Assembly (NCBI RefSeq): GCF_000016065.1
Contig: NC_009092.1
Location: 4,030,001 to 4,094,000, forward strand
DNA from: Shewanella loihica PV-4
GTDB taxonomy: Bacteria; Pseudomonadota; Gammaproteobacteria; Enterobacterales; Shewanellaceae
DNA length: 64,000 nucleotides
Direction of reading: 5' to 3'
Shown here: piece after piece, positions 46,960-49,456 of the stretch
Layout of the letters: the number at the start of each line of letters is the position of its first letter
How positions within the stretch are numbered: position 1 is the first letter of the stretch
The notes under the pieces: generated by a model
The model's database searches: none
What the model was told of the DNA's origin: nothing
Seen by the model: only the letters and a program-made list of their open reading frames with translations
Made by a program: the position numbers and the translations under genes

Positions 46960-47175
46960 TTATTGCGGGGAGATCACCAGATGGCGGCGGAGGAAGGGGT
47001 ACGCCAGGCTAGCCAGCGAGGCGAGGAGGCAGGCCCACATGACCACCACCAATGCGGCAACCATATATTGGCCCAGAATAGTGTCTGCGTTAGCAACATA
47101 GATATGGTGAATCCCATTAAGCAGACCGAAGAAGGCTGCGAAACATATCACACTGATTACTATAAACTTTTTCAT
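46960..47175 (-). CDS. Small two-helix membrane protein
   Basis: 71 residues from ATG at 47175 with AAGGA upstream; an extension of 20 codons to 47235 has no ribosome site. Two hydrophobic segments: FIVISVICFAAFFGLLNGI and YMVAALVVVMWACLLASLAS, with a short loop between and a basic C-terminal end. No family recognised. It lies convergent to the histidine kinase, 8 bases from its stop, and shares no strand neighbours. Confidence 0.65.
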   Translation of the reverse strand: MKKFIVISVICFAAFFGLLNGIHHIYVANADTILGQYMVAALVVVMWACLLASLASLAYPFLRRHLVISPQ

Positions 47176-47296
47176 ATCGAAATCCTTGTTTTCCCTGACT
47201 GAATTCAGGTTAGCAGATGCTCTCCGATAATACACATTGGTTACTATTCGAATTTTTAATAGGTCTAGAGGGAAGGATTAACAGGGATTCACGGGC

Positions 47297-47351: not shown

Positions 47352-48416
47352 TTACTTGTGGTATTGCGCCGACAGTTCGTGAACTGACTTGATGAAGGCG
47401 CCGGCATGCTCTGGATCCACATGTTGGTGAATACCATGACCCAGGTTGAATACATGGCCCGAACCTTCGCCGTAACCGGCCAAGATCTGACGCACTTCTT
47501 CGTGGATGCGCTCAGGTGAAGCGTAAAGCATAGAAGGATCCATGTTACCCTGAAGGGCAACCTTGTGACCCACGCGGCGACGAGCGTCGGCAATGTCCAC
47601 TGTCCAGTCCAGACCCAGTGCATCACAGCCAGTCTCGGCCATCGCCTCTAGCCATAGTCCGCCACCCTTAGTGAACAGAGTCACAGGCACCTGACGACCA
47701 TCGGCATGACGGGTCAGACCGTCGACGATCTTCTGCATGTAGCGCAGCGAGAACTCGCGGTAGGCGGTGTGAGACAGGGCGCCGCCCCATGAGTCGAAAA
47801 TCATCAGTGACTGGGCACCGTTGGCCACCTGTGCATTCAGGTACAGGGTCACGGCATCGGCCAGCTTGTCTAGCAACATGTGCAGCGCCGCAGGCTCGGC
47901 ATAGGCCATCTTCTTGATCTTCTCGAAAGTCTTGCTCGAACCGCCCTCGACCATGTAGGTCGCCAGTGTCCAAGGTGAACCAGAGAAACCGATCAGCGGC
48001 ACTTCGCCTTTCAACTCACGGCGAATGGTGCTAACGGCCTTCATCACATAACCAAGCTCATCTTCTGGATCCGGCACTGCCAGCTTCTTGATGGCATCAA
48101 GCGTATCGGTTGGACGCTCGAAACGAGGACCCTCACCGGTTTCGAAATAGAGACCCAGGCCCATGGCATCTGGCACGGTCAAAATATCAGAGAATAAGAT
48201 CGCAGCATCGAGATCGTAACGACGAAGTGGTTGCAACGTCACCTCACAGGCCAACTCGGCATTGCGGCACAGTGACATGAAGTCGCCGGCTTGTGCGCGG
48301 GTTGCTTTGTATTCAGGAAGGTAACGACCCGCCTGACGCATCATCCACACAGGAGTCACATCAACAGGCTGTTTTAGTAAGGCACGTAAATAACGATCAT
48401 TTTTTAGTTCTGCCAT
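47352..48416 (-). CDS. hemE: Uroporphyrinogen decarboxylase
   Basis: 354 residues. It converts uroporphyrinogen III to coproporphyrinogen III in haem synthesis. Signatures: [19 protein letters not shown] (N-terminal PROSITE-like region) and [17 protein letters not shown] in the middle; the catalytic Asp lies in [13 protein letters not shown]. Full length. It is divergent from rsd across 477 bases that hold a candidate small RNA. Confidence 0.97.
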
Positions 48417-48608
48417 AAGGCTCTATTCCTACGCTTATTGATTTTCGCTGGGACAGTAGTTTAGCATTTACGCGAGTAAAGTAACCTCCATCGGCGCATT
48501 TATGTGACAAACGCCGCTTGATTATTTTTTTACCCCCTCACGCTTCCACTCAAGGTTTGGCCTAGGGCGCAATTTGCTCGCCTCAGCCCTCAATTCGTTA
48601 GAAAAAAG

Positions 48609-48637
48609 TTGCACCCCCTCTTTGCCTTTGGTATAAA
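48609..48637 (+). promoter_or_regulatory. Sigma-70 promoter of a candidate small RNA
   Basis: TTGCAC (48609-48614), exactly 17 bases, TATAAA (48632-48637). The predicted start is at about 48644, about 250 bases before the rsd start codon. Confidence 0.7.
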
Positions 48638-48643
48638 AAGTCT

Positions 48644-48737
48644 GCGCTAGCAAGAACAATCAAGAAGCTCGTCGCATCGAGCCCGCAAAAACTTTACTCG
48701 CCCAGCGATAGATTTCTATCGCTGGGCATTTTATTTC
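48644..48737 (+). ncRNA. Candidate ~93-nucleotide small RNA between hemE and rsd
   Basis: A compact transcription unit with no start-stop frame longer than a few codons. After a ~22-base single-stranded 5' end comes a small hairpin GCTCG/CGAGC (48667-48671 and 48678-48682), then a 17-base linker with an A-rich core (48683-48699), then a rho-independent terminator, GCCCAGCGATAG/CTATCGCTGGGC around ATTT (48700-48727), with tail ATTTTATTTC. This is the layout of an Hfq-type trans-acting sRNA. It is not a recognised RNA family to me. An alternative is a short attenuated rsd leader, but rsd is ~155 bases further on. Confidence 0.6.
48700..48737 (+). terminator. Terminator of the candidate small RNA
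   Basis: 12-base perfect stem with a 4-base ATTT loop and a T-rich tail. There is no annotated gene upstream on the plus strand for over 1.7 kb other than the predicted unit, so the terminator needs a transcript to stop. Confidence 0.85.
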
Positions 48738-48766
48738 TGCCCCTCTCACCGACAACGCCTCCGTCA

Positions 48767-48780: not shown

Positions 48781-48893
48781 CAAGCAGATTCGACCAGCTG
48801 AAAGATCGCCCGGATCGACTAAAAAATGGTTGATCAAAGCGGTATTTCTCACCTACATTAGAAGTCATAGAATAACTTGCGATGGGGACCATC

Positions 48894-49364
48894 ATGCTAA
48901 AGCAATTGGAACGGGCCGAACAGAAATGGGGTGGCGCCAATACACTGATTGATCAATGGCTAAACCACCGTCGTAAGCTGCTGATTAACTACTGCCAAAT
49001 CGCCGGGCTGCCGCCCTACGAGGCGATAGACAAGTCGCTTCCCGCCTTCAAGTCGGTGAAAGAGTTCTGCGATCTTCTGGTGGATTATGTGTCCGAAGGA
49101 CACTTCGAGGTCTATGACCGCGTGGTTACCGCCTGCGAGAAAAACGGCGAATCCAGCCAGGCCTTGGCGCAGACCATAGTGCCTAAGATCAGCGAAACCA
49201 CAGATATGGCCCTGGACTTCAACGACAAGTACACCAGTGCCAGCGACGACAAGATCCTCTATCAGCTGGACAAAGATCTCTCCTCACTCGGCGATGCCAT
49301 GGAGACACGTTTCCAACTGGAAGATCAGCTACTGGAAGTGCTACACAGTAAATACTCGGCATAA
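48894..49364 (+). CDS. rsd: Regulator of sigma D (anti-sigma-70 factor)
   Basis: 156 residues from ATG at 48894 (MLKQLERAEQKWGGAN) with GGGGA upstream; an extension of four codons is not supported. The Rsd/AlgQ family is helical and binds region 4 of sigma-70 in stationary phase, favouring alternative sigma factors. The N-terminal WGGANTLIDQWLNHRRKLLINYCQIAG is typical. Ends at a shared terminator with acnB. Confidence 0.94.
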   Translation: MLKQLERAEQKWGGANTLIDQWLNHRRKLLINYCQIAGLPPYEAIDKSLPAFKSVKEFCDLLVDYVSEGHFEVYDRVVTACEKNGESSQALAQTIVPKISETTDMALDFNDKYTSASDDKILYQLDKDLSSLGDAMETRFQLEDQLLEVLHSKYSA

Positions 49365-49426: not shown

Positions 49427-49456
49427 AAAAAAGGCCAGCTAATCAGCTGGCCTTTT
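49427..49456. terminator. Bidirectional terminator between rsd and acnB
   Basis: AAAAGGCCAGCT and AGCTGGCCTTTT arms around AATC, between convergent genes. Confidence 0.92.

Follow-up and report, generated by a model that had tools for sequence, protein, structure and literature searches.

Does the gap between hemE and rsd in Shewanella loihica PV-4 harbor a gene of its own or a control element of one of its two neighbors? The question concerns a window of 64,000 nucleotides (contig NC_009092.1, positions 4,030,001 to 4,094,000; the term denotes this whole stretch, and positions are counted from its first letter), for which a reading of the letters alone had proposed an unannotated small-RNA (sRNA) transcription unit. 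The analysis presented here indicates that positions 48600 to 48737 of the plus strand are very probably a stand-alone sRNA gene (Table 1).

Table 1. Coordinates of the predicted sRNA unit, its parts, and the neighboring features in the window
Feature	Positions	Strand	Remarks
hemE	47352..48416	-	Neighbor outside the unit; PF01208, E 1.3e-144
A-tract, UP-element-like	48600..48608	+	Mean majority-letter fraction of 48602-48608, 0.91 (127 rows); UP role putative
-35 hexamer TTGCAC	48609..48614	+	3/6 consensus matches
Extended -10, TTTGG + TATAAA	48627..48637	+	TG at 48629-48630, TATAAA at 48632-48637
Predicted sRNA transcript	48644..48737	+	~85-94 nt; start and end predicted; fold
Open 5' segment, proposed pairing region	48644..48668	+	~25 nt; includes AAGAACAAT; three ARN triplets
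Small hairpin GCTCG-TCGCAT-CGAGC	48667..48682	+	5 bp; arms GCTCG/CGAGC
Linker	48683..48699	+	17 bases; variable within the genus
Intrinsic terminator	48700..48727, tail to 48737	+	Perfect 12-bp stem; T-rich yet interrupted tail ATTTTATTT
rsd promoter-like element TTGATC-18-TACATT	48830..48859	+	Strict pattern in 31/129 genomes, relaxed in 85/129
rsd	48894..49364	+	Neighbor outside the unit; PF04353, E 3.3e-61

All parts named in the sequence-only reading, i.e., TTGCAC, the 17-bp spacer, TATAAA, the hairpin, the 17-base linker, and the perfect 12-bp terminator stem, were recovered in place by sequence inspection, scan, and fold. Its description of the promoter as near-consensus was overstated, since TTGCAC shares only TTG with TTGACA, but an extended -10 element and an upstream A-tract are present. 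Because of this three-of-six match, the TTGCAC promoter was not listed by a consensus promoter scan of the window. The terminator scan of the window found four terminator-like sites versus 2.1 expected, so that motifs alone are modest evidence; the only site with 12 pairs was that of the sRNA unit. The transcript is predicted to start near position 48644, at the GCGCTAGC segment, and the stretch from 48644 to 48735 corresponds to 89 to 97 nt across 127 rows of the genus.

The proposal had been staked on the conservation of promoter and terminator in relatives, and it withstood this comparison: a search with positions 48600 to 48745 matched every genome of the genus (129 of 129). The rsd gene was found in the same 129 genomes, and all 129 rsd loci were fetched; hemE, pointing away, and rsd flank the unit in 128 of them, and the remaining locus (L058) reaches a contig edge. 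Over the 127 unique rows, conservation ends sharply at the edges of the unit, with majority-letter fractions of 0.56 upstream, 1.00 in both TTGC and TATAAA, 0.43 over most of the spacer between them, and 0.46 downstream. TTGC is present in 126 rows and the full TTGCAC in 86, the TG of the extended -10 element in all 127, and TATAAA and the 17-bp spacer in 126 each. Chance is excluded, since the unit occurs in all 129 genomes next to flanks with fractions of only 0.46 to 0.56. The A-rich linker stressed in the sequence-only reading is there, but the conserved part of the transcript is its 5' end: positions 48644 to 48668 have a mean fraction of 0.99 (lowest column, 0.95), followed by the hairpin (0.88) and the terminator arms (0.86 to 0.87), and the linker (48685 to 48699) is the least conserved part, with a mean of 0.73. 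The unit thus has a promoter and an intrinsic terminator of its own, both conserved, as expected of an independent intergenic sRNA gene, and it is single copy in the S. loihica PV-4 genome according to model R1, which was built, like the covariation alignment, from 74 non-redundant rows of the genus.

The fold of positions 48644 to 48737 has a predicted energy of -33.6 kcal/mol, compared with -18.25 +/- 3.05 for shuffled sequences (z of -5.03; 0 of 200 shuffles). The covariation check suggested beforehand was run across the genus, and the terminator pairs do covary, with compensatory double changes at 11 of the 12 pairs in the 74 rows. When hairpin and terminator are taken together, 13 of 17 pairs carry double changes (8.2 in shuffles; 0 of 500), 129 cells are double changes (29.9 in shuffles; 0 of 500), a cell count that is inflated by relatedness, and 96.5% of cells are paired, versus at most 42.4% and at most 5 double-change pairs in slid controls. 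The small hairpin alone has 94.3% of its cells paired; a single pair is broken in 18 of the 74 rows, and the stem letters change in other families with the pairing retained; RNAalifold predicted the terminator and not the small hairpin from the genus alignment. Seven relatives from other families gave z values from -5.03 (L193) to -0.78 (L234, equaled by 42 of 200 shuffles), with weak folds also for L210 (-1.54) and L214 (-1.84). Since the folds of relatives do not always beat their shuffles, the structural case rests on covariation and the terminator, not on fold energy per lineage.

For the search beyond the genus, model R1 (74 rows) was complemented by model R2 (42 rows, including distant ones); the E values of both are rough. 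In the family, R1 matched 141 of 152 genomes, namely, 129 of 129 in the genus, 11 of 14 in g2 (Ferrimonas, whose position in the same family group presumably fits Shewanellaceae), 1 of 2 in g3, and none of 5 and 2 in g4 and g5, respectively. Outside the genus, 11 of the 23 genomes of the family lack a match (3 in g2, 1 in g3, 5 in g4, and 2 in g5), which implies that the unit is dispensable or has diverged beyond the model. At three loci, L279 and L281 (G148 and G145) and L280 (G143), hemE and rsd are still adjacent and the unit was not seen, making them candidates for natural loss. In the order samples, R1 matched 69 of 394 genomes and R2 86 of 389, counts that include chance matches. R2 matched 4 of 369 genomes of the class sample, i.e., that of S. 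loihica PV-4, two others from its order, and G671 (a terminator-only match); outside the order, this sample gave no convincing match, and blastn of E. coli genomes and plasmids yielded nothing.

Inspection by eye covered 60 non-genus or second-copy loci. Sixteen terminator-only matches were set aside (14 of 40, L207, L216, L217, L219-L227, L230, and L231; 2 of 20, L247 and L251), L228 was doubtful and not counted, and 43 loci were kept. All 43 have the hairpin and the terminator, generally accompanied by the promoter and a CGCTAGCRAA-type start; GCTAG is found near the start in 41 of them, whereas in the other two, both of f6, an exact GCTAG is missing around the start of the match. In 30 further genomes, the 420 bases upstream of hemE were scanned by eye and with the GCTAG pattern, which revealed a divergent version between hemE and nudC in seven of seven f21 genomes, which are likely Vibrio; it lacks the AAGAAG element, and the same scan detected no such unit in the remaining 23. 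The count by eye thus comprises 49 non-genus homologues from eight family groups (43 loci plus 6 f21 genomes). Family group f7 includes Aliikangiella and Pleionea (Kangiellaceae), and a pattern scan of named genome contigs returned 27 stretches, 12 of which are named Ferrimonas, Aliikangiella, or Pleionea. Two database titles stand apart: JAESTK010000243.1 (L273), a metagenome-assembled genome titled Flavobacteriales, matches the pattern, likely by chance or contamination, and the title Marinobacter nauticus on L266 (NZ_JAHVJZ010000006.1, 271250 bases) looks wrong, as the same-size G140 contig C6 groups with g2.

The homologues are not tied to one downstream gene. Among the 43 loci, all 31 of f1, f6, f20, and f21 adjoin hemE, and all 12 of f4, f7, f13, and f14 lie in the gap between tex and dsbB, without hemE, and share the promoter layout, the 5' CGCTAGCRAA, the hairpin, and the terminator (the Tex, DsbB, and NudC domains were confirmed in one locus each). 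The unit is therefore not just an rsd or hemE leader. Tentatively, the homologues may form an order-wide sRNA family in which a common chassis, made up of the TTGCA/extended -10 promoter, the 5' CGCUAGCRAA, the hairpin, and the terminator, is combined with a second module that differs by lineage. This module would be AAGAACAAUCAAGAAG in this genus, a CCUGCAGACUGGAAAA-type linker in the tex-dsbB group, a linker of the AGCGAGCAUUU type in the majority of f6 loci, and the 29-base GCAUCUCAUAACGACAUCUUACUUACCCC linker, which is invariant in all seven f21 genomes. In that case, the sRNA would be old, and its targeting part would have been exchanged between lineages under an unchanged gene control.

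Two details of these linkers deserve mention. A CCTGCAGACTGGAAAA-type linker is common to the tex-dsbB loci L212, L214, L218, L234, L235, L237, L240, L241, L243, and L249 and is missing from the hemE-linked versions. In the seven f21 genomes (L293, L294, L296, L299, L302, L304, and L305), GCATCTCATAACGACATCTTACTTACCCC is invariant beside the terminator arm CCCCTCC and looks like a separate pairing region that might cover ribosome-binding sites.

Several other explanations of the unit have to be weighed against an independent sRNA gene. A gene for a tiny peptide has a negligible probability, and nothing was seen in its favor: no frame starting with ATG, GTG, or TTG closes inside the predicted transcript of the window, frames of at least eight codons occur in 1 of 127 genus rows, and ATG occurs in 29 of 127, so that the claim of an interval without a coding frame holds. 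The minus-strand frames of 35 to 52 codons that overlap the unit in the mechanical open reading frame list are not evidence of genes. If the unit served rsd as a leader or attenuator, it would stop most transcripts at its terminator, and some signal would permit run-on; its location on the same strand, 120 to 590 bases upstream of rsd across the genus, would suit this role. However, rsd has a promoter-like element of its own downstream of the unit, a similar one precedes rsd in two g4 genomes without the unit (L279 and L281; by eye), and the sequence between the terminator and this element is not conserved. The constant position before rsd holds within the genus and fails outside it, where an opposite-strand nudC intervenes in some families, other homologues precede dsbB, or rsd is unseen in the 4-kb locus; a leader function is very improbable. 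A slim chance is left for a cis element acting on hemE or nudC-hemE via antisense transcription or interference, for which the unit of f6 and f21 is suitably placed in that it can occupy the nudC-hemE gap, on the opposite strand. The 12 tex-dsbB loci and the missing pairing signal with the hemE start speak against this explanation.

Duplex energies between species-matched 47-nt 5' portions of the sRNA and start regions were no better than those of dinucleotide shuffles for rsd (mean z, +0.42; n = 40, the first of the 74 non-redundant genomes), hemE (+0.91; n = 40), and gtrA (+0.29; 30 loci of 40 genomes with gtrA, S. loihica PV-4 excluded). The earlier hint at haem or growth-phase links is accordingly unsupported, also because some homologues are not beside hemE. 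A 24-nt wobble complement with up to three mismatches occurs in the S. loihica PV-4 genome only at the sRNA gene itself. Shorter complements were slightly more frequent than in a reversed control in many of 97 genomes (15-mers with one mismatch; 9 versus 5 in PV-4, one being the gene itself) and often about twice as frequent in 125 genomes (12-mers; 23 versus 11 in PV-4), but this control keeps neither codon nor dinucleotide bias, and no conclusion was drawn. The main rival to base pairing is a stand-alone RNA whose 5' segment is the site of a binding protein. The near-invariance of this segment, the lack of a long complement elsewhere in the genome, and the missing pairing with the three tested genes all agree with protein binding, but the short, U-tailed, single-hairpin form resembles pairing sRNAs, and we regard this rival as unlikely. 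Its variant as a CsrA sponge was ruled out for the window, as positions 48644 to 48737 contain no GGA.

The surroundings of the unit offered three further observations. TTGAT and TACATTAGA of the rsd promoter-like element are kept in many relatives. Between the convergent rsd and acnB genes, inspection by eye revealed a hairpin at 49433 to 49452 (GGCCAGC-TAATCA-GCTGGCC, preceded by A's and followed by T's) that is probably a shared two-way terminator and was not listed by the terminator scan. Downstream of hemE, a 91-codon open frame without a Pfam match extends over positions 46960 to 47235 of the minus strand.

Overall, the independent plus-strand sRNA unit of the sequence-only reading is strongly supported: promoter, 5' segment, and terminator are conserved throughout the genus, the structure covaries, frames are absent, rsd has a separate promoter-like element, and homologues occur in the tex-dsbB gap. 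We are highly confident that the hemE/rsd gap contains an independent non-coding RNA gene, and the full reading, i.e., a free-standing, trans-acting, Hfq-bound sRNA of about 90 nt whose 5' segment pairs with several mRNAs, appears likely. A trans-acting mode via the 5' segment is the most likely one and Hfq is probably bound, with transcript, Hfq binding, and targets being predictions. A sigma70-type RNA polymerase would start near 48644 from the extended -10 promoter and stop at the hairpin terminator (48700 to 48737), giving an RNA that, according to fold and covariation, would comprise an open 5' segment, the small hairpin, the linker, and the terminator. Hfq might be bound by the U tail of the terminator and the A-rich 5' stretch, and a requirement for Hfq is plausible. 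A run of three ARN triplets occurs in 126 of 127 genus rows and runs of two to four in distant rows, but 21% of segment shuffles contain a run of three as well, and base composition could yield the motif, which makes this a weak test. The near-invariant 5' segment would then pair with several mRNAs and alter their translation or decay, with the neighboring genes disfavored as targets; an unpaired, near-invariant segment next to a drifting linker and drifting stem letters is the pattern expected of a pairing region with multiple targets.

An sRNA gene that is present in each of the 129 species sampled from a model genus of metal respiration, and that has relatives in marine gammaproteobacteria, probably controls something central. 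An hfq mutant of Shewanella oneidensis is short of haem; in the available text, the cause is left open and the possibility of an unidentified sRNA is mentioned (PMC4214671). The unit is a candidate for this phenotype, although no pairing was found here with gtrA, the gene implicated in it. In the same genus, 209 sRNA candidates were reported for S. piezotolerans WP3 and, like the present unit, sought beside orthologous genes (PMC5471319); the main text of that study contains no rsd, uroporphyrinogen, or "heme..." term, and an overlap via its supplementary tables is possible. Among the Vcr sRNAs of Vibrio cholerae, a member of the same order, several Hfq-bound ones are uncharacterized, and the available text gives no coordinates for a comparison with the f21 version in the hemE-nudC gap (PMC9732341). 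srvg23535 of Vibrio alginolyticus, which adjoins rctB in the available description, is another RNA. For Alteromonas Te101, 127 chromosomal sRNAs were described (PMC5864184). The CsrB/RsmX-type sponges, e.g., Aln1a-c of Alteromonas, are likewise short RNAs from intergenic regions in the same order, but according to the part of the paper available they carry many A(N)GGA motifs, in contrast to the RNA of the window with none (PMC5864184). Within the published literature covered, no sRNA was described at this locus, although the supplementary candidate tables of these studies (WP3, Te101, and Vcr) may list it.

The proposed comparison with Rfam was carried out on the window, and release 15 gave no match at the gathering score, neither there nor in 30 distinct loci (27 with the unit, one of them, L228, doubtfully); the only match at E values up to 10 was Ysr202 on the minus strand, with 12.7 bits versus a gathering score of 315. 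The claim of novelty is therefore limited to an RNA without an Rfam family and without a description found, and the present alignments suffice to define such a family.

Nearest among known RNAs are trans-acting sRNAs that depend on Hfq, above all those with an ARN stretch (class II, such as ChiX, MgrR, and CyaR). The predicted RNA differs from them by its conserved CGCUAGCRAA 5' start and by having no sequence match in Rfam, and it resembles them in its length, its own sigma70-type promoter, its open segment, its intrinsic terminator, and its A-rich stretch of ARN triplets, which base composition could also produce.
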